Shown here piece after piece: positions 9,691-21,302 of a DNA stretch of 64,000 nt. The stretch covers positions 4,305,001 through 4,369,000 of the forward strand of contig NZ_CP034783.1 of NCBI RefSeq assembly GCF_006094435.1, given 5' to 3'. Every line of letters starts with the position of its first letter. Position 1 is the stretch's first letter. This stretch comes from Pseudomonas sp. MPC6. GTDB taxonomy: Bacteria; Pseudomonadota; Gammaproteobacteria; Pseudomonadales; Pseudomonadaceae. The position numbers and the translations under genes were made by a program. The notes under the pieces were generated by a model that was not told the DNA's origin, did not search any database, and saw only the letters and a list, made by a program, of their open reading frames with translations.

Positions 9691-10731
9691 TCAGCCCGAC
9701 CGCTCCTGACGCTGATACTGCCGCGGGCACACGCCAAACCGGGCGCGAAATTCGCGGGAGAAATGCGCGCCGTCGGAGAAGCCACAGTCCATGGCAATCT
9801 GGGTGATGCTGCTGTGGCTGTTCACCAGCAGCCAGCCGCCGTACTCGACCCGCAGCGAGCGTTGGAACTCCATGGGTGACAGCCCCAGCGACTGCTGGAA
9901 TGCCCGTGTCAGCTGGCGCCGGCCGAGCCCTACGTAGCGTGCGATGGCATCCAGGGTCGGCAGGCTGTCCATGCGCTGCTCGATATAGTGCGCGGCCTGG
10001 CGCACGCGCTCATCCTTGATGTCCGCCAGGTTGGCATAGAAGTGTGCCTGGGGTTGCCGCCCCGGGCGCATGCCCTGCAGCATCATGTGCCGCACCGCCT
10101 GCTGGGCTTTTTCCCGGCCGCAATGCCGGGCCACCAGGTACAACCCGAGGTCGATGGCCGCGGTCGAGCCGGCACAAGTGATCAGGTCGCCCTCGTCGAT
10201 GAACAGGTGATCCACCGCCGCCGGGGTCTTGGGGAAACGTGCGCGGAACGCGTCCAGCACGTTCCAGTGCACACACACCGACCGGCTGCCGACCACCCCC
10301 GCCTGTGCCAGGGCAAAGGTGCCGGTGCAGATGCCCAGCAACCGCGTACGACTCTTCGCCGCGCGCTGCAGCCAGTCACGCAAGGGGGTGGGCAGATGGG
10401 TATTGAGGTAATCGTTGCCGCCGCAGATGGCCACGTAATCGAAGGCATCAAGATCCTGCGCCAGGCCCCCGGACACCTCCAGCGTGATCCCGGCGCTGGA
10501 AGTTCGCGGCAAGCCGTCCACACTCATCACCCGCCAGGCCGTATGGATCTGCCGGCTACCGCCGCCGAGGTCGGCGGACAAGCGCAGCACATCGACAAAG
10601 CCGGAAAATGCCGCCAGGGTGAATTGATCCAGCAGGACCAGGCCCACCGACAGCTGCGGACGACTGCCTGCCCCGGGAACGGGGGAGTCAGGTTGCAGGC
10701 TTTCTCGATTGAGCTGAGTCATTTTTGTCAT
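9691..10731 (-). CDS. GlxA-family transcriptional regulator (DJ-1/PfpI plus AraC domains)
   Basis: This 346-residue regulator has an N-terminal class I glutamine amidotransferase-like (DJ-1/PfpI) domain at about residues 25-195, containing YVAICGGNDYL and RLLGICTGTFALAQAGV. A C-terminal AraC DNA-binding domain at about 235-335 contains DAIARYVGLGRRQLTRAFQQ and IAMDCGFSDGAHFSREFRARFG. GlxA proteins commonly control catabolism of quaternary amines and small amino-acid derivatives. It is divergent from the ABC importer and proline-racemase-family genes across 108 bp and is their likely activator. Confidence 0.9.
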   Translation of the reverse strand: MTKMTQLNRESLQPDSPVPGAGSRPQLSVGLVLLDQFTLAAFSGFVDVLRLSADLGGGSRQIHTAWRVMSVDGLPRTSSAGITLEVSGGLAQDLDAFDYVAICGGNDYLNTHLPTPLRDWLQRAAKSRTRLLGICTGTFALAQAGVVGSRSVCVHWNVLDAFRARFPKTPAAVDHLFIDEGDLITCAGSTAAIDLGLYLVARHCGREKAQQAVRHMMLQGMRPGRQPQAHFYANLADIKDERVRQAAHYIEQRMDSLPTLDAIARYVGLGRRQLTRAFQQSLGLSPMEFQRSLRVEYGGWLLVNSHSSITQIAMDCGFSDGAHFSREFRARFGVCPRQYQRQERSG

Positions 10732-10839
10732 GACCTAACTATTCAACTTTAAGACCCCGAAGTGCAAGCGCTCGCAGCACGGATACGAGCAAGATTCAGC
10801 CAAGGGGAACAGTCCAACAACGCCCCAAGAGGCCTCACG

Positions 10840-11892
10840 ATGAAACTGAAGACAGGTAAGCAAATCACCGCTGCTCTTTTAGTTACCGGCTGCATCTCCT
10901 CATCGGCCGTCATGGCCGAACAGCAAAAGCTGACCGTTGCGTTGTATGGCGGCAACTGGGGCGAGGCGTTCCTCAAATGTGTTGCAGAACCTTTCACGCA
11001 AGCGACCGGGATTGCCGTCGCCCAGGAGGTCGGCACCTCGACCACCACCCTGGCCAAACTCCAGCAACAGAAATCCAGCCCAATGATCGATGTGGCCTGG
11101 ATGGACGGTGGCATCAGTGAATTGGCGTATGCCGCCGGGGTCGTCGCCGATCTCGATCCGGCGGCCATTCCCAACCTGAAGAACGTGCAGGAAAAAGCGG
11201 TCTACACCGATGCCGGCCATACCTTCGCCGTCAGCAGCGGTTTCTATTCCCTGGGCCTGACCTACAACACCAAGGAAATCAAGGAAGCGCCCACCAGCTG
11301 GAAAGACCTGTGGAAACCCGAGTATGCCGGTGCCATTGCCCTGCCCTCGCCCGCCAACTCTTCCGGGGTGCCCTTCGTGTTTTTCATGGCCGATGTCTGG
11401 GGCATCGACCGGGCCGACCTGGCGCCGGTCTACACCAAGCTGGGCGCGCTGGACACCGCACTGTTCTTCGACAGCTCGGGTGCCGCCACCAATGCCTTCC
11501 AGAGTGGCGAAGCGATCATCGGCGCGCATTTCAACGTCGGTGCCTGGGACTTGATCGACAAGGGCGCGCCCATCGGTTTCACCATTCCCAAGGAAGGCGC
11601 CTGGGCCACCGACGCCCGCCTGCACCTGATCAAGGGGGCGAAGAACAGCAAGGCCGGCGAGCAGTTCATCAATACCGCGCTGACCAAGGAAGCGGCGGCC
11701 TGTCTGGCCGGCAAGCTGTACCTGGGGCCGGCGGTGAAAGATGTCGTGGTCACCGATGACGTGGCCCGCAAGCTGCCCTGGGGCGTGGGCGGTTCGATCG
11801 ACAACCTGCGTTTGTTCGACTGGAGCCAGATCAACGCGCAGCGCGCCGCTGTCACCAACGACTGGAACCGCAAGGTCACCGCCAAAAACTAG
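10840..11892 (+). CDS. ABC transporter substrate-binding protein (PotD-like family 1)
   Basis: This 350-residue periplasmic binding protein starts at 10840 with a signal peptide (MKLKTGKQ, then a hydrophobic run ending SSAVMA). The mature part has YGGNWGEAFLKC and later GLTYNTKEIKEAPTSWKDLW, typical of the extracellular solute-binding family that serves PotABC-like importers. The open frame extends back to 10762, but 10840 has AAGAGG about 7 nt upstream and gives a proper signal peptide. It leads a five-gene set (binding protein, ATPase, two permeases, epimerase-like enzyme). The enzyme suggests a hydroxyproline- or proline-derived ligand, which is inference. Confidence 0.87.
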   Translation: MKLKTGKQITAALLVTGCISSSAVMAEQQKLTVALYGGNWGEAFLKCVAEPFTQATGIAVAQEVGTSTTTLAKLQQQKSSPMIDVAWMDGGISELAYAAGVVADLDPAAIPNLKNVQEKAVYTDAGHTFAVSSGFYSLGLTYNTKEIKEAPTSWKDLWKPEYAGAIALPSPANSSGVPFVFFMADVWGIDRADLAPVYTKLGALDTALFFDSSGAATNAFQSGEAIIGAHFNVGAWDLIDKGAPIGFTIPKEGAWATDARLHLIKGAKNSKAGEQFINTALTKEAAACLAGKLYLGPAVKDVVVTDDVARKLPWGVGGSIDNLRLFDWSQINAQRAAVTNDWNRKVTAKN

Positions 11893-11907
11893 CTCAAGAG
11901 GTCTGCA

Positions 11908-12975
11908 ATGTCAGTTTTGTTGAGCATCGACAGTGTCTGTAAAAGCTTCGGGCCGTTCCAGGCGCTGGACAACATCCACCTGGACATCGAGCAGGGCGAA
12001 TTCATCGTGCTGCTCGGCCCCAGCGGTTGTGGCAAGACCACCCTGCTGCGCTCGATCGCCGGCTTCATGCAGCCCGATTCCGGCCGCATCGCCATCGATG
12101 GCCAGGATGTGAGTCGCTTGCCGCCCTACCGTCGGCCTCTGAATACCGTGTTCCAGAACTACGCGCTGTTCCCGCACATGACCGTCCTGGAAAACGTCGC
12201 CTACGGACCGCGGCGCCAGGGGGTCAATCGCGCCGAGGCCCGGCTCAAGGCGCGAGAAGCCCTGGCGATGGTCGGCCTGGAAGCCCTGGAGGAGCGTTTT
12301 CCCCGCGGCTTGTCCGGTGGGCAGCAGCAGCGCGTGGCCCTGGCTCGCGCCATCGTCAATCAACCGAAACTGCTGCTGCTCGACGAGCCGCTCTCGGCCC
12401 TGGACATGAAACTGCGCAAGCGCATGCAGCTGGAGCTCAAGCACCTGCAGGCCAAGCTCGGCATCGCCTTCATTTTCGTCACCCACGACCAGGAAGAAGC
12501 GATGACCATCGCCGACCGTATCGTGGTGATGAATGCCGGACGCATCGAACAGGTCGGCGCCAGCAGCGAGATTTACAGCGCCCCGGCTTCGCGTTTCGTC
12601 GCCGACTTCATCGGCGAGGCCAACCTGATCGGCTATCAGGCCAGCGATAGCGGCGAGATTCGCCTGGGCATCGCGCATACCCCGATTTCGAGCGGCGCCA
12701 AGGATCTCCTGCCCCACGGCGTGGCGGTGCTGCGTCCCGAGCATCTGCAGGTCCTGGATGCCTCGAGCCCGGCGAGCGCCAGTTGCTGTGAACTCAAGGG
12801 CACAGTGACCGATATTGTCACTGTGGGCAGCCATACCCTGGTGCACTCGCTGATCGACGGGCAATCGATCGTGGCGCGCACCATGGGTTTCCCCCGCGCC
12901 GACCTGAGCACCGGAAGCGCGGTGCGCCTGGGCTTCAATCCCGCGCACCTGCACCTGATCGGGGAGCCGGTATGA
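11908..12975 (+). CDS. ABC transporter ATP-binding protein, PotA-like
   Basis: This 355-residue ATPase powers the importer encoded around it. Walker A is GPSGCGKTT near residue 35. The Q-loop, the signature LSGGQQQR, Walker [13 protein letters not shown] and the switch VTHDQEEA follow in order. A C-terminal TOBE domain ([11 protein letters not shown] onward) is typical of polyamine/iron-type ATPases. It begins 15 nt after the binding-protein stop and overlaps the first permease by 4 nt, so the three are translationally linked. Confidence 0.92.
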
Positions 12976-13814
12976 AACGCCCGGTGCTCGCCCCGTCGTT
13001 GATGCTGTTCGGTGCCCTGGCCTTTTTCACCGCGTTCTTTCTCGCGCCGTTCGCCGTGGTGATCTTCGCCAGCCTGACCAAGGGCGCCGATCAGGCGTTC
13101 ACCCTGGAGCACTACATCAGGGTGCTGGGCGACCAGTACCACTGGGACGTGATTCTGGTGACCTTCCGCATCGCCGCGCTGACCACCCTGATCTCGTTGC
13201 TGCTGGGTTATCCGCTGGCCTGGTATCTGGTGCGGATCGTGAAGTGGCGGGCCTGGCGCCGCGCCTGCGTGATTCTGCTGGTGGTGCCGATGTTCACCAG
13301 CAACATCGTGCGTTCGTTCGGCTGGATGGTGCTGCTGGGGCGTAAGGGCCTGGTCAACCAGAGCCTGCTGGAAACCGGCCTGATCGATACGCCGGTGCGT
13401 TTCCTGGGTACCGAACTCGGGATCCTGATCGGCATGGTGTACATCCTGCTGCCGTTCATTGTGCTCGCGGCCGGCAATGCCCTGGCACAGGTCGACCCGG
13501 CCTTCGAACAGGCTTCCGAGGACCTTGGCGCCAGCCCCCGCGCGACCTTTTTCCATGTGGTGCTGCCGCTGACCATGCCCGGCATCATCTCCGGTTCGAT
13601 CATGGTCTTCACCCTGGCGGCGAGCGCCTACGTCACGCCGGCCCTGCTGTCCGGGGGACGGATCTCGGTGCTGTCGATGCTGATTTTCCAGCAATACAGT
13701 TCGGTCTTCGACTTCAACTACGGCGGCGCGCTGAGCGTGGTGCTGCTGATCTTTACCCTGGTCATGGTCGGGCTGGCCGGGCGCGTCGGCAGTATTCGGG
13801 GGAGCAACCCATGA
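12972..13814 (+). CDS. ABC transporter permease, PotB-like
   Basis: This 280-residue inner-membrane permease has about six hydrophobic segments. The cytoplasmic EAA loop lies near residues 178-197 ([20 protein letters not shown]), where it docks to the ATPase. It overlaps the ATPase gene and the next permease gene by 4 nt each. It pairs with the following PotC-like subunit to form the channel. Substrate specificity is set mainly by the binding protein and is not known. Confidence 0.91.
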
Positions 13815-14599
13815 TCACTAAAATACTGGTCAGGCTGGTGGCCTGGGCCGTGCTGGGCTACATGCTGCTGCCACTGGTGGTCATCCTCGGCGTCTCGGTG
13901 ACCGCCACGTCATTCCTGGCTTTCCCGCCGCAGGGCTGGACCCTGGACTGGTACGCCAAGATGCTCAGCGATCCAAGCTATGTGGCGTCCTTTGCCACCA
14001 GCACCGTCCTGGCCCTGGTCGCCACCTTTGTCGCTGTGCTGCTCAGCGTGCCGGCCGCCCTGGCGATGGCACGCTACGACTTTCCCGGCAAAGCCACGAT
14101 CCTCGCCGCCCTGACTTCACCGCTGGTGTTTCCGCACATCGTGCTGGGGGCGGCGCTCTTGCAGTTTGGCAGTTACTTCGGCTTGACCCGCAGCTTCCTG
14201 GCGTTGTTGATCGGTCACACCATCATCATCTCGCCCTTCGTCCTGCGTTCGGTGCTGTCGATGCTGACGCCCGAGCAGCGCGCCCTGGAAGAAGCCTCGA
14301 GCGATCTGGGCGGTACGCCCTGGGCCACCTTTTTCCTGGTGGTGCTGCCGCAGATCCGGCCGGGGATCGTCACCGGGTCGATCTTTGCCTTCATCTCGTC
14401 ATGGATCAACGTCGAGCTGTCGATCTTCAACACCACGCCGGACCTGAACACCATCCCGGTGAAGCTCTTCAACTACGTGCAGTACACCGTCGACCCGACC
14501 ATCGCCGCCGCTTCCGGCGCCACCATCATCGTCGTCGTAGTCGCGGTGATCGTGCTGGATCTGTGCATTGGTCTGGACCTGTTGTCAGAACGCAAATAA
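13811..14599 (+). CDS. ABC transporter permease, PotC-like
   Basis: This 262-residue permease is the second channel subunit of the same importer. It has six predicted membrane segments and an EAA loop (LEEASSDLGGTPWATFFLVV). The start overlaps the preceding permease stop by 4 nt. The following proline-racemase-family gene begins 35 nt later, so the operon probably continues into it. Confidence 0.91.
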   Translation: MITKILVRLVAWAVLGYMLLPLVVILGVSVTATSFLAFPPQGWTLDWYAKMLSDPSYVASFATSTVLALVATFVAVLLSVPAALAMARYDFPGKATILAALTSPLVFPHIVLGAALLQFGSYFGLTRSFLALLIGHTIIISPFVLRSVLSMLTPEQRALEEASSDLGGTPWATFFLVVLPQIRPGIVTGSIFAFISSWINVELSIFNTTPDLNTIPVKLFNYVQYTVDPTIAAASGATIIVVVVAVIVLDLCIGLDLLSERK

Positions 14600-14634
14600 C
14601 CCCCCACATACCCCCGTAAGCCAGGAGTTCCGTC

Positions 14635-15648
14635 ATGCGCATGCAAGACACGTTCGATGTCATCTATACCCATACCGAAGGCGAACCATTGTGCATCGTC
14701 CACAGCGGCATTCCCTACCCCGCCGGCTCCAGCATCCTGGCCAAGCGCGCCTTTCTCGAGCAGAACTATGACTGGCTGCGCAAGGCACTGATGCAGGAAC
14801 CGCGCGGCCACAAGGACATGTTCGGGGTGTTTCTCACCCCGCCTTCCAGCAGCGAGTTCGACGCCGGGCTGATCTACATGGACGGCAGCGTGTATTCGCA
14901 CATGTGCGGCCACGGCACCATTGCCGTGAGCATGGCGATGGTCGCCCTGGGCCTGGTGCCGCGCGGTGCCGATGGCATCACCAAAATCCGTTTTGAAACC
15001 ACCGCCGGCCTGGTAGTGGCCGAGGTGGCGTCGGAAGGTGACAACGTGCTCTGGACCCGTTTCGAAAACGTGCCGGCCTACGTGGCCGCCCAGGACATCC
15101 CGATCAGTCTTCCCGGTTATGGCGACCTCAAGGCCGACCTGGTCTGGGGCGGCAACTACTTCGGCATCGTCGACCTGACCGATTGCGCCCTGCGCATCAG
15201 CCCGGACAACGGCAGCGAACTGTCGCGCCTGGGTCTGCTGGCACGCGAGCAGATCAACCGGCAGATGAAGATCCAGCACCCCACCGAGGCGCATATCAAC
15301 GACCTCAACTTCATCACCTTCTGGCACCCGGCAACCATCGAAGGCGCCTTCTACAAGAACGTGCACGTGTTCAGCGCCGGCCAGCTCGACCGCTCGCCCG
15401 GCGGCACCGGCACCAGCGCGATGATGGCCATGTTCGAGGCCCGGGGCAAACTGGGCCTGAACCAACCCATCCTGTCCGAAGGCCTGCTGGGCAGCGGCAC
15501 CTTCGAAGGCTGCCTGCTGGGCGAAGTCGACCTCAACGGCACCCGCGCGGTGCGCCCCACCGTCAAGGGTACGGCCAGCATCCTGGGGACTTCGCGCTGG
15601 GTTATCGAGCGCAATGATCCGGTGGGGGCGGGTTTCGTCGTCAACTGA
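14635..15648 (+). CDS. Proline racemase superfamily enzyme (hydroxyproline epimerase/dehydratase-like)
   Basis: This 337-residue enzyme belongs to the family of proline racemase, 4-hydroxyproline 2-epimerase and trans-3-hydroxyproline dehydratase, which work with two active-site acid/base residues. The first is present as Cys91 in HMCGHGT. The second motif normally reads SPCGTG (racemase/epimerase) or SPTGTG (dehydratase); here it is SPGGTG with Gly256. The missing second thiol or hydroxyl is unusual and argues against a simple two-base racemase. The gene ends the importer operon, so the substrate is probably the transported compound. Family is certain; reaction is not. Confidence 0.85.
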   Translation: MRMQDTFDVIYTHTEGEPLCIVHSGIPYPAGSSILAKRAFLEQNYDWLRKALMQEPRGHKDMFGVFLTPPSSSEFDAGLIYMDGSVYSHMCGHGTIAVSMAMVALGLVPRGADGITKIRFETTAGLVVAEVASEGDNVLWTRFENVPAYVAAQDIPISLPGYGDLKADLVWGGNYFGIVDLTDCALRISPDNGSELSRLGLLAREQINRQMKIQHPTEAHINDLNFITFWHPATIEGAFYKNVHVFSAGQLDRSPGGTGTSAMMAMFEARGKLGLNQPILSEGLLGSGTFEGCLLGEVDLNGTRAVRPTVKGTASILGTSRWVIERNDPVGAGFVVN

Positions 15649-15753: not shown

Positions 15754-16203
15754 ATGCTGGCTGAAATCATGCGTGAACCCGCCTACGGTGCCTACCGCGC
15801 TCGGCTGCACGCCTTGCTGCAAATTCCCACCGATGCGTCTGACCTGGAAATCCACGACATCATCCAGATCGGCTTTGCGGCTGGCCGTCTTGTGTCACTC
15901 TGCGAACAGGGTGAACTGACGCCGCTGGAGCGCGACCAGATCATCCCCTTGAAAACGCTGAAGACCCGGGTGGCTAAAGACCAGCACCTCACGGTCGACG
16001 AGAGTGATCGCCTGTTCCGCGCCGCCCACATCACCGCCATGGCAGACGCTGTATTTGGCAACGATGAAAAAGCCAAACGCTGGCTGTCGAAACCCAAGGA
16101 CCGGTTTTCGGGCCGTAGCCCAATGGCAATGCTGTCGACGGTACAGGGAACACGCCAGGTTGAGGAAACACTGATCCAGTTGGCCGAAGGCTACGCCTTT
16201 TGA
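15754..16203 (+). CDS. Xre/MbcA/ParS-type antitoxin (second pair)
   Basis: This 149-residue antitoxin has the ParS/MbcA toxin-binding C-terminus (DRLFRAAHITAMADAVFGND, then AKRWLSKPKDRFSGRSPMAML). The N-terminal part is a helical DNA-binding region. An AGGAGAAGG ribosome site precedes its ATG. It overlaps the toxin by 4 nt. Little similarity to the first antitoxin is visible outside the C-terminal motif, so the two pairs are independent acquisitions rather than a duplication. Confidence 0.9.
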   Translation: MLAEIMREPAYGAYRARLHALLQIPTDASDLEIHDIIQIGFAAGRLVSLCEQGELTPLERDQIIPLKTLKTRVAKDQHLTVDESDRLFRAAHITAMADAVFGNDEKAKRWLSKPKDRFSGRSPMAMLSTVQGTRQVEETLIQLAEGYAF

Positions 16204-16646
16204 TCTTTTGGCGAATCAGCGCTTTTGCGGATCTGACCGGACGTGGCGGCATCCTCGCGGGGGGGCGCTGGCACACGGCGGGGAGACCGGTGGTCTATCT
16301 GGCGGGGACACCTGCCGGTGCAATGCTCGAGATACTGGTACACCTTGAGATCGATCAGGAAGACCTCCCGGAGACGCTCCAGTTGCTCAAAGTCGAGGTG
16401 CCCGACGATATCAGCCTCGCCCCTGCCCCGGCACTCAAGCCGGATTGGGAATTCGAGCCGAACCACACCAAGGGCATTGGCGATGCATTCCTGAAAGGAT
16501 GCCCTGCCCTGCTGTTGCCGGTACCGAGCGCTATCATGCCGCATTCGCTGAACTACCTGTTCAACCCCATGCACCTCGACTCGGTCAAGGCCATCATTAC
16601 CGCTGAGCCGTTCAGGCTCGACAACCGACTGATCAGGAAAACGTAA
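16200..16646 (+). CDS. RES-domain toxin (second pair), TTG start
   Basis: This compact 148-residue RES toxin is the common size of the NAD-degrading family. The active-site residues are present as Arg23 (GGRWH), Tyr33 (VVYLA) and Glu44 (MLEILVH), with the late NPMHLDS motif also intact. Translation begins at TTG, overlapping the antitoxin stop in the sequence TTGA. The N-terminus IFWRISAFADLTGRGG fits the family from the first residues. It appears functional. Confidence 0.9.
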   Translation: MIFWRISAFADLTGRGGILAGGRWHTAGRPVVYLAGTPAGAMLEILVHLEIDQEDLPETLQLLKVEVPDDISLAPAPALKPDWEFEPNHTKGIGDAFLKGCPALLLPVPSAIMPHSLNYLFNPMHLDSVKAIITAEPFRLDNRLIRKT

Positions 16647-16703: not shown

Positions 16704-19700
16704 TCAGTTAACTTCAGTGTTCCGGATCGTGATTCTCATACGCTCAAGGTTGCGGAAAATAATGCTTTGACGCCAAGCCAGGCCGCCAGGTACCAGCCTG
16801 ATGTCACGACGGGCGAGAGCCGGCATCACATGCTCGAGTTCAAGCCTGGCCAATTCAGCGCCCAGGCAGTAATGCGCACCATGGGAGAAAGCGAGGTGTT
16901 GCTTGGCGCCCCGGCCCAGATCCAGGCGGTCAGGGTCAGGAAACATCGCGGGATCACGATTGGCCGCCGCGATCGACATAATGACCGCGTCACCCCGCCT
17001 GATGTGTTGCCCACCGATTTCAACATCCTCCAGTGCATAGCGAATTGTACTGCGGGCCGCGCTGTCAAAGCGCAAAAACTCATCGACAGCGACCTTCGCA
17101 AGTTCCGGATGTTGATGCAATCTGTCGCGTTGGTCAGGGTTGCGCAGCAACGCCAACGCGCTGTTACCGAGCATGCTCATTGACGTTTCGAAGCCGGCGG
17201 TGAAAATGAGCGCGTAGTGGGAGATGAGCTCATCCATGGTGATGCCATTGTCCAGCGCCGCATTCAAGTCCAGTGCACAGCCGTGCTTGGCGGCCCCATC
17301 GATCTGCTTGCCCAAATGTTCGCGCAGGTAGGTTGCGAAACTGGTGGCACTGCGATTGGCACGTTGCACAACTTCATGGGAAACCAGTGGATCAAACACC
17401 AAGGCGAGATCTCGTGCCCAAGGCACCAGTAAATTGGCATCCCCACGAGGAAATCCGAGAACCTCGGCCATTATTTTTACCGGAAGGGGAAGCGCAAGAT
17501 CGCGGATCAGATCGGGCGTGGAGCGCAGACACATATCGGCGATGTGCTCGTCGACACAATCGCTGATATAGCGCTCCCAGCCCTGCATCGCTTCGCGAGT
17601 GAACAATGGGCCGAAGACCTGCCGCAACAATTGTTGCCGTGGTGGGTCGATGAAGAGCATGAACTCGTTGAACAGAAGCGTCAGGGGCATGCTTTCCCGG
17701 CGTTGATACCAGGCACCGAGCAGTGATGGCTGTGTTTGTGCGAGTTCTACCCCAATGGCATTGCGCGAATCCGCGGAGAAGCGCTTGTCGCGCAAGGCGG
17801 CGGAGACGTCCTCGAACCGGGTCAGCCACCACTGCCCCCGTGCATCACGGTGAATGGGGTCATGCTTGCGGATCTGATGAAGAATGGGATAGGGATCTTC
17901 GATGAAGGTCGGGTGGTAGGGATCAAAGCTCAGGCCAGCAGATGAATAATCAATCGCGCGTCCTGTGGTCCGGCTACCTTTGGCCGCTATCAATCGATCC
18001 AGACCGATATCAAAGTGCACATCGGTCTGCGTTTGCTGGGTTATTGCAGCAGCAAGGGTTTGAACATGCGGGCGGGTGATCATGCTGAAGTGGTCTCCGG
18101 GAACATCAATCACACGCAATGCCGGACACCACTGATTCCAGCCCAGCGCGTCCGTCCCGAAGCGAAAGCGCACGCGACGAGCGGGATGCATGACACTGGC
18201 CGGAAAACCGCCGGTCGCCCTGAACAAAACGACTGGACCAGGATAGGGGCGTGGCCGGTACTGTTCCATTGCCGCGTAGCCGGCGCGATATGTGCGCAGT
18301 ACGTGGGCAATGGCCGAGCCGTTCAATAGTCCGGCCTGCGCTCCCAGCTCCTGGGTCAACAATTGGCGTTGCTGATTCGGGTCGAGCGAGATGATGGACG
18401 CAAGAACGTCGGGCTCATCGCTGGCACCGGAGATACGCCGATACGAGTTGCGCAACTCGAATAACGCCATGAGCTCGTCATCATCGCTCGGACTGCCTTC
18501 GTACTGTGCAGCGGAAGAGTCAAGTAATAACAGGGGATCCACACGCTCCCCCCGTTCTGCAAGCTGTTGTGCGATCTCAAAGGCCACCAGGCCACCGAAG
18601 GAGTGGCCAGCAATCGTGTAGGGCCCCGAGGGCTGAATGGCGCGAATCTCGTTGATATAGCGCCGAGACATTTCCTCAACCGAACCCAGGGGCGGTTCGG
18701 CACCGTTGGTGCCTGGCGCCTGGAGCGCAATGAAAGGTCGTGTGCTGTCGAGCGCGGTGCAAAGATCAACAAGGTAGGAAACGGTGCCACCCAGCCCACC
18801 GATGCAAAACAGTGGCGGGGATGACGACAAGTCACGCAAGGCAAATGCGCAGCTCGTGCGAGTGTTACTGAGAGGCACGGCCTCTGCGGCGACGTGAGGC
18901 GTTGGCGTGCCGGGCTGGGAACCAGCGGTCTCGTGGCCTGATGCCTCATATTGTTTGATCAGCCGAACAGCCAGTTCATCGAGTGTGGTAGTCCCTACCA
19001 GTGTCGTTACCGGGATGGTGATACCGAGACTTCGCTCCAGATAGCTGGTCAAGTCCATCGCGACGAGCGAGTCGAGTCCCAGGTCGTCCAGCCTGGTATC
19101 CTCCGAAGGCCGACCACCGCCTGTCAAACGCACTATTTCCTTGGCGATGTGGTCGATCAGGGCGAATCGACTGTCAGCGTCATTGCCCATTAAGGTCAAC
19201 GTTTCGTCGAAAGCCACAGGACTGAGCTCCCAGGCCTGTTCGACCTCAAGTTGCTGCTTCAGGTAACGTTTCTGGCAGGCTTGGCGTGCCAGCTTACCGC
19301 TCGAGGTCTTATCGATGCTGCCCGTTTTGATCAAGACGATGTCCTGCGCTTGCAACTGGTAATGGGCACTCAGAGCACAGCGTATGGCATCCAGCACAGA
19401 GGCAAGGGTTTGCTGGCGCTCCGTCTCATCGGGCAGATGACGCGCGTCTACCTCAGCGATGATCGTCAGCCGCTGCTGGGTGTCTCGTTCACAGGAAAAG
19501 ACGATCACAGCTCCAGGTCGTATCCTGGCATGGCTCTGCTCAATCGCTAATTCAAGGTCTTGGGGGTAGTAGTTACGTCCGCGAAGGATGATCAGATCTT
19601 TGATCCGCCCGGTGACATAAAGATGACCATCCTCCAGGCAGCCCAAGTCCCCCGTCCTCAGCCAGGTGCGATTGGGGTCCTGGTCGAGGGTGGCCGCGAA

Positions 19701-20984
19701 TGTGGCTTCGGTATCGGCCGGCTTGTTCCAGTAACCGGTGGCCACATGAGGGCCTCGTACCCATATTTCGCCAATCTCACCCACCTGCACGAGTTGGCGC
19801 GAGTCCGGATGCACGATGCTGACCTGAACGTCTTGCAACGGCCTGCCACAGGAGGTGAACGGTATGGCTTGCGGATGGGACGGTTGGACTGGCGTGAAGC
19901 GATTATGCTTGAGGGCTTCGCCATCAATGAAAAGGGTTCGCGGTGTCTCAGAGGCAGGACCTGCGGCCACGGCAACCACTGCTTCGGCCAAGCCATACGC
20001 TGGCACCATGCAGTTTCTGCTCAAACCTTGTTTGCCAAAGGCCTGAAGAAAGCGTTCAACACTGGCGTGACGCACAGGTTCGGCGCCCACGATGCAGCTT
20101 CTGAGACTGCTGAGGTCGAGCGCATCTCGGTCGACCCCGACAATTTTACGTACAGCGATGTCGAGTGCGAAATTCGGAACGAATGTATCGGTGGCGCGGT
20201 ATCGGCTGATCGTCGACAACCAGACCGCCGGGCGACGCATAAAGTCCAGAGGCGACATAAGTACGGAGCGACCGCCACTGATGACCGGGAGCAGGACCCC
20301 ACCCATCAGGCCGAGGTCATGATAAAACGGGGTCCAGGAGACCACCGTACGATCAGGTCCTTGTTCGACTTGCGCTTCCATTTCTGCCTGGATCATCCGC
20401 ATGTTGGCAATGATGTTGCCATGACTCAGGATGACCCCCTTGGGCCTTGATGTAGAGCCTGAAGTATATTGGATAATCGCCGGGTGCCGGGGCGTTAGCC
20501 CGAGCGCTTTGAACATAGGGGAAGTCTCGCCCTGGCACAGGGTGTCGACGGCCAGCCATGGCAGTTTCGCTAATTGAGGGGCGAAGGCCAGCATGGGCTT
20601 TGCCAGCTCAAGAATCGTGCTGCTGGTGAGTACCACCGCAGGGGCTGCATCGGCGACGATGGTCATGAGGCGTGCCAAGGTACGCTCGATCCGGGAAGGC
20701 TCTGGCGGATAGGCGGGAATAGCGGTGGCCCCGGCGTACAGGGCGCCGTGCAGGGCGGCAATAAAATCGAGCCCGGGCCAGAATAGCAATAACACCCTGG
20801 TATCTTGCCCAAACTGCTCGTCCAGGGATTGCGCGATGACTCGGGCCCGACGGTCGAGCTCGGCGTAGCTGAAGCCAATCTCGGATTGATTGGCGTTGTC
20901 GAGGAAAATATGGACCTGTTTGTCGGGTGATTGTCCAGCACGTTCACGCAGGTAAACGTCCAGCGAGGGATAGGCGTTATCCAT
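16704..20984 (-). CDS. Multidomain fatty acyl-AMP ligase - acyl carrier protein - thioesterase - cytochrome P450
   Basis: This 1426-residue single protein has four domains. (1) Residues 1-580: fatty acyl-AMP ligase with P-loop YTSGSTSRPKG at 173-183 and the FAAL-type RGRNYYPQDLE near 468-478. (2) About 600-690: carrier protein with LGLDSL, phosphopantetheine site Ser639. (3) About 715-985: type I thioesterase with GHSFGG (Ser795) and His965. (4) About 1018-1426: P450 with I-helix AGFET (1263-1267), ExxR at 1302-1305 and heme Cys1373 in FSHGAHYCLG. The likely cycle is free fatty acid to acyl-AMP to acyl-ACP, oxidation by the P450 and release by the thioesterase. The start at 20984 is chosen for its GGAGG site. 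No partner ferredoxin or phosphopantetheinyl transferase is adjacent. Confidence 0.92.
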   Translation of the reverse strand: MDNAYPSLDVYLRERAGQSPDKQVHIFLDNANQSEIGFSYAELDRRARVIAQSLDEQFGQDTRVLLLFWPGLDFIAALHGALYAGATAIPAYPPEPSRIERTLARLMTIVADAAPAVVLTSSTILELAKPMLAFAPQLAKLPWLAVDTLCQGETSPMFKALGLTPRHPAIIQYTSGSTSRPKGVILSHGNIIANMRMIQAEMEAQVEQGPDRTVVSWTPFYHDLGLMGGVLLPVISGGRSVLMSPLDFMRRPAVWLSTISRYRATDTFVPNFALDIAVRKIVGVDRDALDLSSLRSCIVGAEPVRHASVERFLQAFGKQGLSRNCMVPAYGLAEAVVAVAAGPASETPRTLFIDGEALKHNRFTPVQPSHPQAIPFTSCGRPLQDVQVSIVHPDSRQLVQVGEIGEIWVRGPHVATGYWNKPADTEATFAATLDQDPNRTWLRTGDLGCLEDGHLYVTGRIKDLIILRGRNYYPQDLELAIEQSHARIRPGAVIVFSCERDTQQRLTIIAEVDARHLPDETERQQTLASVLDAIRCALSAHYQLQAQDIVLIKTGSIDKTSSGKLARQACQKRYLKQQLEVEQAWELSPVAFDETLTLMGNDADSRFALIDHIAKEIVRLTGGGRPSEDTRLDDLGLDSLVAMDLTSYLERSLGITIPVTTLVGTTTLDELAVRLIKQYEASGHETAGSQPGTPTPHVAAEAVPLSNTRTSCAFALRDLSSSPPLFCIGGLGGTVSYLVDLCTALDSTRPFIALQAPGTNGAEPPLGSVEEMSRRYINEIRAIQPSGPYTIAGHSFGGLVAFEIAQQLAERGERVDPLLLLDSSAAQYEGSPSDDDELMALFELRNSYRRISGASDEPDVLASIISLDPNQQRQLLTQELGAQAGLLNGSAIAHVLRTYRAGYAAMEQYRPRPYPGPVVLFRATGGFPASVMHPARRVRFRFGTDALGWNQWCPALRVIDVPGDHFSMITRPHVQTLAAAITQQTQTDVHFDIGLDRLIAAKGSRTTGRAIDYSSAGLSFDPYHPTFIEDPYPILHQIRKHDPIHRDARGQWWLTRFEDVSAALRDKRFSADSRNAIGVELAQTQPSLLGAWYQRRESMPLTLLFNEFMLFIDPPRQQLLRQVFGPLFTREAMQGWERYISDCVDEHIADMCLRSTPDLIRDLALPLPVKIMAEVLGFPRGDANLLVPWARDLALVFDPLVSHEVVQRANRSATSFATYLREHLGKQIDGAAKHGCALDLNAALDNGITMDELISHYALIFTAGFETSMSMLGNSALALLRNPDQRDRLHQHPELAKVAVDEFLRFDSAARSTIRYALEDVEIGGQHIRRGDAVIMSIAAANRDPAMFPDPDRLDLGRGAKQHLAFSHGAHYCLGAELARLELEHVMPALARRDIRLVPGGLAWRQSIIFRNLERMRITIRNTEVN

Positions 20985-21302
20985 GTAGCCTCCGTATTCC
21001 ATCGTCAGGAGCCCAAGCATTCATCCAGCGTAAAATCAATGACTTGAATGCTTCGCACGCCAAACTTGGTGACTACATGTTGCCGCCGGGCCGGCTCTGG
21101 ATCTACTGTCATAGTTGACAGTTTTTTATAACCAATTGAAATTCCATCAATAATCAAAGTGTCCAAAGGCCAGTGGCCAAACTGCGAGCACAGTGACTCG
21201 CAGCGCCCTTCAGACAGGCGAGTCAAGTCACGCTTCAACTCAAGGGGGCAGCGAACCTGGAATGGACCGGTGCTCCCGGTCCACTCCATTGATCACTGGT
21301 GA
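20985..21302. promoter_or_regulatory. Promoter-side region of the FAAL-P450 gene
   Basis: This 318-bp gap lies between the RidA 3' end and the start of the multidomain gene. It has an AT-rich stretch around 21115-21160 suitable for a minus-strand promoter, although no well-spaced -35/-10 pair is clear. It also holds the hairpin at 21258-21288. A 94-codon open frame across it has no recognisable content. Confidence 0.45.
21258..21288 (-). terminator. Hairpin downstream of the ridA-type gene
   Basis: The arms TGGAATGGACCGG and CCGGTCCACTCCA pair over 13 bp with one mismatch around a 5-nt loop, 14 nt past the RidA stop. No T-run follows on the minus strand, so it may be a transcript-stabilising or inefficient terminator hairpin ending the nine-gene operon. 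Confidence 0.45.

Follow-up and report, generated by a model that had tools for sequence, protein, structure and literature searches.

A four-domain protein encoded on the minus strand

The 64,000-nucleotide stretch of Pseudomonas sp. MPC6 DNA analyzed here (contig NZ_CP034783.1, positions 4,305,001 to 4,369,000; hereafter the window) carries a gene for a single protein that joins a fatty acyl-AMP ligase (FAAL), an acyl carrier protein (ACP), a type-I thioesterase (TE) and a cytochrome P450. The longest frame at the locus spans 16704-21020 of the minus strand and encodes 1438 aa without a break, but an internal ATG at 20984, yielding a protein of 1426 aa, is favored as the start because GGAGG is found 4 bases ahead of it. 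The plus strand across 16704-20984 is crowded with stops, and a reading on that strand is thus rejected. The gene and its parts, with residues named as in the 1426-aa protein, are the following:

16704-20984, minus strand: FAAL-ACP-TE-P450 gene, 1426 aa, ATG at 20984 and stop at 16704-16706
20989-20993, minus strand: GGAGG, similar to a ribosome-binding site, read in the sequence
19215-20984, minus strand: fatty acyl-AMP ligase domain, residues ~1-590, with K182, E334, D446, R460 and K564
18915-19187, minus strand: acyl carrier protein domain, residues ~600-690, with Ser639 at 19068-19070
18030-18842, minus strand: type-I thioesterase domain, residues ~715-985, with Ser795 (18600-18602), Asp822 and His965 (18090-18092)
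16707-17942, minus strand: cytochrome P450 domain, residues ~1015-1426, with AGFET at 1263-1267, ExxR at 1302-1305 and the heme Cys1373 (16866-16868)

In the numbering of the 1438-aa frame, Pfam places AMP-binding at residues 25-431 (1.9e-67), PP-binding at 638-684 (6.8e-11), Thioesterase at 736-994 (1.4e-31) and p450 at 1257-1401 (1.2e-20). The original prediction had proposed, with no mention of strand, a single protein of 1426 residues in this unusual order, with the TE in mid-chain and the P450 at the C-terminus; the minus-strand frame and the Pfam matches confirm both the protein and the order, and no break of the frame was found between domains.

A family of full-length and split proteins

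The same domain order was sought in a whole-protein search of 5.8 billion proteins, which returned 783 matches, the best 120 of which were examined and provide the counts in this section. All four domains are present in 25 other proteins (P0002-P0026), 41-54% identical to the window protein (P0001), with named sources in Halomonas binhaiensis, Pseudomonas karstica, Pseudomonas graminis, Serratia odorifera, Luteibacter and a Collimonas metagenome-assembled genome. These 25 proteins lead us to reject a chance fusion or sequencing error, and the latter is made somewhat less likely by the cluster of the window protein itself, which holds 27 member sequences, on 1 contig. An acyl-CoA-binding domain is added in six of the 26 full-length proteins (P0008, P0009, P0011, P0016, P0020 and P0022), and a rescan of P0016 located it at the N-terminus (residues 7-80). 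Its presence alongside a free-acid ligase is a puzzling pairing.

A second group of 17 proteins (P0028-P0044, 822-858 aa) shows a split form, ACP-TE-P450 without the FAAL, with named sources in Halomonas elongata, Halomonas eurihalina, Dyella caseinilytica, Lysobacter and Microbulbifer halophilus. Not all of them are truncations at contig ends, because eight sit on contigs of 46 kb to 4.8 Mb. In P0027 (Pseudomonas khavaziana), the sequence diverges from that of its relatives within the TE and the P450 is absent, and this protein is probably a decayed copy. Proteins of ~930-1000 aa, ~34-36% identical and several of them named as cyanobacterial, have the same three domains as the window enzyme in the same order (FAAL-ACP-TE), but no P450 (e.g. 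P0048 from Brasilonema, P0051 from Crocosphaera, P0058 from Okeania and L009 from Laspinema). The Laspinema protein (L009, 9995-12799) has a glycosyltransferase gene close by. Among other cyanobacteria, a FAAL-ACP, a related P450 and a polyketide synthase (PKS) are neighbors in Amazonocrinis (L011, 9881-19246), and Moorena (L010, 11170-14481) has a P450 of a different type and a FAAL behind a 3684-aa frame.

Domain identity and conservation of the active sites

Catalytic residues were compared in an alignment of 36 proteins out of the 43 in both groups: 23 of 26 with all four domains, where the window sequence stands for P0001, and 13 of 17 in the split form. P0006, P0014, P0026, P0032, P0038, P0039 and P0043 were omitted, either as less complete sequences or to limit the size of the alignment, and the partial proteins P0027 and P0045 were omitted both here and from the 69-row P450 tree discussed below. 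The phosphopantetheine serine in the DSL motif (Ser639), the TE Ser795 and His965, and the P450 Glu1302, Arg1305 and heme Cys1373 are identical in all 36 sequences. Asp822, which completes the Ser-Asp-His triad in PF00975, is kept in 34, and so are the I-helix Thr1267 and, independently counted, the acid preceding it (33 Glu, 1 Asp); the five FAAL residues K182, E334, D446, R460 and K564 are kept in all 23 full-length proteins. The key residues singled out in the original prediction (Ser639, Ser795/His965 and Cys1373) are thus fully conserved, their roles and those of the other catalytic residues being presumed from known family motifs. Since conservation extends to the catalytic residues of every domain, selection appears to act on each of the four active sites.

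The N-terminal domain can be assigned to the FAAL type. Among the best 25 of 110 NCBIfam matches to this part of the protein, models named fatty-acid--AMP ligase score 439, 408 and 395 bits, as against 336 bits for PRK07768, a model named for CoA ligases, and 176 for the next such model. The best of these FAAL-type scores (439 bits) compares with a curated cut-off of 775, and no named FAAL subfamily (FadD21, FadD32 and others) exceeded its cut-off within the same 25 matches. In the Protein Data Bank (PDB), chains with the names Polyketide synthase and Saframycin Mx1 synthetase B rank highest; we take these to be FAAL domains. Next come FadD32, FadD23, FadD28 and a 'Fatty Acyl-Adenylate Ligase'.

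Several other class assignments can be discarded. No redox-partner domain (reductase or ferredoxin) is found among the eight Pfam matches of the protein, which rejects a self-sufficient P450. CYP152/OleT peroxygenases replace the acid-alcohol pair of the I-helix with an Arg, and membership in this group is rejected by the usual pair seen in AGFET (1263-1267). Likewise, no desaturase domain was found by Pfam in the protein or in the ten neighboring proteins scanned, and the gene is thus not regarded as part of a polyyne or alkyne cassette.

Evolutionary history of the P450 and of the fusion

When the P450 alone was used as query, the first eleven of the best 120 matches were short proteins (P0121-P0131, 42-54% identical), followed by P450s at no more than 42% identity. 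These short proteins, mostly located on small contigs, are probably fragments of family members. A tree of 69 rows was built with the P450s of the 26 full-length and 17 split proteins, 25 free-standing P450s (the next-best matches of the P450-only search and hence a subset of free P450s) and PDB entry 9w6b. A single branch with support 98/91 separates the 25 free-standing P450s from those of the family, and recent assembly from free P450s is thereby rejected. On this tree the split label switches three times or more, and the approximately unbiased test rejects one common origin for that form (p-AU 3.3e-114). The split and full-length labels were taken from domain lists that preceded both trees, and the test was run once the outcome of a quick tree of 80 rows was known. 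This second tree, which adds P0045 and P0121-P0130, the latter labeled as fragments (all dropped from the 69-row tree; P0131 was too short to enter), agrees with the first and nests the ten short proteins within the family.

Because the family constitutes one P450 group within which that label switches repeatedly, the fusion looks ancestral, and the history would most simply be that of a four-domain protein later split on repeated occasions. Three of the short proteins, P0123 (Dyella sp. M7H15-1, 440 aa, on a 3.5-Mb contig) and P0127 and P0129 (~400 aa, on contigs of 0.18 and 0.21 Mb), could be genuine P450-only genes or else copies in decay; if taken as additional splits, they would raise the number of separations, not lower it. 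Across 23 full-length proteins, the distances of the four domains correlate at 0.82-0.95, and none of 2000 permutations reaches any of these values. As judged from these sequence distances, the four domains have diverged as one unit; since kinship alone raises such correlations, they speak of an absence of domain swapping and not of contact.

Structural comparisons suggest that the P450 resembles a known acyl-ACP oxidase. The predicted fold has as its best-ranked solved structures by VIA-align, although not by Foldseek, the complexes of P450 BioI (CYP107H1) with acyl-ACP (PDB 3ejb, 3ejd and 3eje), and the modeled fold thus appears close to that of BioI, at only ~30% sequence identity. The parallel with acyl-ACP oxidation by BioI, already drawn in the original prediction, gains some strength from this ranking. 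PDB 9w6b ('Cytochrome P450') is 59-60% identical to the P450 of the full-length member P0005 and nests inside the family on the P450 trees; the entry is absent from the fold-search rows, and its code was not found in the open-licence PMC literature.

Proposed reaction and alternatives

We consider it fairly probable that the protein is a self-contained enzyme that loads, oxidizes and releases acyl chains, with electrons provided from outside. In such a scheme, the FAAL would convert a free fatty acid, probably a long-chain one, and ATP into acyl-AMP, and the acyl group would be transferred in cis to the phosphopantetheine on Ser639 of the enzyme's own ACP. The ACP would offer the tethered chain to the C-terminal BioI-like P450, which would depend on O2, draw its electrons from separate redox proteins of the host and oxidize the chain on the ACP, most simply through in-chain or sub-terminal hydroxylation. 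The ACP would finally swing to the TE, where the Ser795/Asp822/His965 triad would hydrolyze the oxidized free acid off. Here we infer the substrate class, the oxidation on the ACP, its type and the hydrolytic release. The FAAL type of the ligase and the acyl-CoA-binding domain of six relatives hint at long acyl chains, and hydroxylation is the most likely oxidation, with BioI-like cleavage, epoxidation and desaturation as alternatives. A complete load-oxidize-release cycle in cis had been anticipated in the original prediction: all four domains do lie in one chain, but the cycle is not closed, because the protein has no redox-partner domain. The host genome holds one phosphopantetheinyl transferase frame over the cut-off (267 aa) and a second just below it (261 aa), as well as one other P450 (L103, 398 aa). 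A more far-reaching proposal, to which we give an even chance, is that these proteins make up a class of autonomous fatty-acid oxidases not described before, in which the P450 accepts only its own ACP and attacks a defined position fixed by the tether, and a new oxylipin (a signal, a surfactant or an antibiotic) is freed without a gene cluster.

The best-surviving alternative concerns release. The oxidized acyl group might be handed to a partner (an amine, an alcohol, a nonribosomal peptide synthetase (NRPS) or PKS, or a lipid), with the TE serving as transferase, cyclase or editing domain and the free acid not being the product. Type-I TEs of NRPS and PKS systems often cyclize or transfer, the closest sequence match to the TE among PDB chains lies within an NRPS chain (4zxh), and the related FAAL and P450 genes of Amazonocrinis adjoin a PKS gene. 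Nonetheless, no NRPS, PKS or acceptor gene occurs among the ten neighbors scanned, the TE Ser and His are invariant and TE distances track those of the other domains, and we regard such a hand-off as unlikely, if worth keeping in view. Chain cleavage in the style of BioI, leading to a pimelate-like dicarboxylic acid and an aldehyde acid, appears improbable. It would fit the ranking of the BioI complexes and the fact that eight of the best 120 P450 relatives are named at source as pimeloyl-[acyl-carrier protein] synthase, but identity to BioI is low and an acid freed by TE hydrolysis would need re-activation before it could serve biotin synthesis. Slightly less probable still is a P450 acting on the free acid or the released product, with the fusion providing co-localization only. 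Many P450s of similar fold in the fold search oxidize free small molecules, and P0123, P0127 and P0129 are short stand-alone proteins; the ACP, however, shares the chain with the P450 in 26 full-length and 17 split members, and the best-ranked folds are ACP-bound ones. A different carboxylate substrate, aryl or amino-acyl, is the least probable of all, since the ligase is of FAAL type and an acyl-CoA-binding domain is carried by 6 of 26 full-length members.

Relation to known systems

The BioI system consists of separate proteins, without ligase or thioesterase, and makes pimeloyl-ACP for biotin, whereas the window enzyme joins ligase, ACP and TE to its P450 in one chain. In the self-sufficient P450s CYP102 and CYP116B the P450 is also part of a multidomain protein, but the domains added in the window enzyme handle the substrate, not electrons, and include no reductase or ferredoxin domain. 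Polyyne clusters encode FAAL, ACP, desaturases and an essential thioesterase as separate proteins, although one such cluster from Pseudomonas has a thioesterase fused to a desaturase (PMC8406139). JamABC and polyyne cassettes (protegencin pgn, caryoynencin cay) likewise combine a FAAL, an ACP, oxidizing enzymes and a required thioesterase (PMC8406139), but they do so through separate genes, with desaturases instead of a P450 and with several extra genes. By analogy, the FAAL-P450 enzyme may be viewed as a single-chain version of the load-oxidize-release logic of polyyne clusters.

The FAAL-ACP-TE-P450 architecture was not found in the titles and abstract openings of the open-licence PMC literature (subscription papers and preprints being beyond reach), nor is such an enzyme mentioned in the available portions of papers on lipothrenin, on Gigaspora and on NRPSs (a review). 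The earlier remark that no characterized enzyme of this architecture was known thus holds for the literature searched, yet the structure of one P450 nested in the family has already been solved (9w6b).

Position-selective oxidation of unactivated fatty acids by P450s is hard. If the proposed reaction is true, a self-loading chain whose carrier fixes the position of attack would make a compact biocatalyst and a simple model for the study of P450-carrier protein recognition in cis. It would also predict an as yet uncharacterized oxidized lipid from scattered bacteria (those named being Gammaproteobacteria and one Collimonas metagenome-assembled genome), which cluster-based genome mining could overlook on account of its single-gene origin.

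Rarity, probable acquisition and genomic setting

Distribution was analyzed with a 281-aa probe spanning the TE-P450 junction, which scores at least 169 bits on all 43 full-length and split members. The MPC6 genome itself was the sole match in overlapping sets of 398 genomes from the genus, 390 from the order, 369 from the class and 398 from the phylum. Given the scores of the probe on known members, the rarity of the gene is probably real, even if the loose first screening step of the genome search may lose some matches. With the whole protein as query, 28 of 57 genomes (MPC6 included) match at 1e-100, but, own gene aside, the matches listed cover at most residues ~10-716 and lie mostly in frames of ~4300 aa, presumably large FAAL-containing synthetases of the pyoverdine type. 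At the same threshold, 45 plasmid records match, none of which covers 80% of the query, and a contig search with a common P450 motif returned 80 loci (42 from Streptomyces) with no frame joining FAAL and P450 or TE and P450. The named Pseudomonas proteins P0015, P0018, P0019 and P0021 are only 45% identical and fall elsewhere in the tree.

The relatives G020 and G022 match window DNA only from 21303 rightward, at the end of the stop codon of a RidA-like frame, and the left part of their 20-kb stretches has no match to the window; the FAAL-P450 gene sits at a synteny break. G+C content is 58-59% at 16-22 kb, as compared with 61-66% at 6-16 and 22-30 kb, although it is lower still, at 52-57%, between 44 and 54 kb. 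The gene was most likely acquired horizontally. The features around it are:

15754-16646, plus strand: RES-domain toxin and Xre/MbcA/ParS antitoxin, ending 57 bases from the FAAL-P450 stop
9691-15648: AraC/DJ-1 regulator, ABC transporter and proline racemase
21105-21122: small hairpin with perfect pairing (ACTGTCA..TGACAGT), within the 318 bases that separate the FAAL gene from the RidA-like stop

The RES/Xre pair is downstream of the FAAL-P450 gene and convergent with it, and beyond it come the proline racemase, the ABC-transporter genes and the AraC/DJ-1 regulator. Upstream, on the same strand as the FAAL-P450 gene, lie the RidA-like frame, identified by eye, and genes for two FAD/NAD oxidoreductases and a further ABC transporter. 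Eight of the ten neighboring proteins scanned have a Pfam match, and no biosynthetic enzyme of the FAAL-ACP-TE-P450 kind was found among the ten, so that the gene does stand alone over this range, as the original prediction had held. The 9691-15648 segment looks like a (hydroxy)proline-type catabolic locus and is not common to G020 and G022 at this place. The hairpin at 21105-21122 is terminator-like on the plus strand and possibly an operator.

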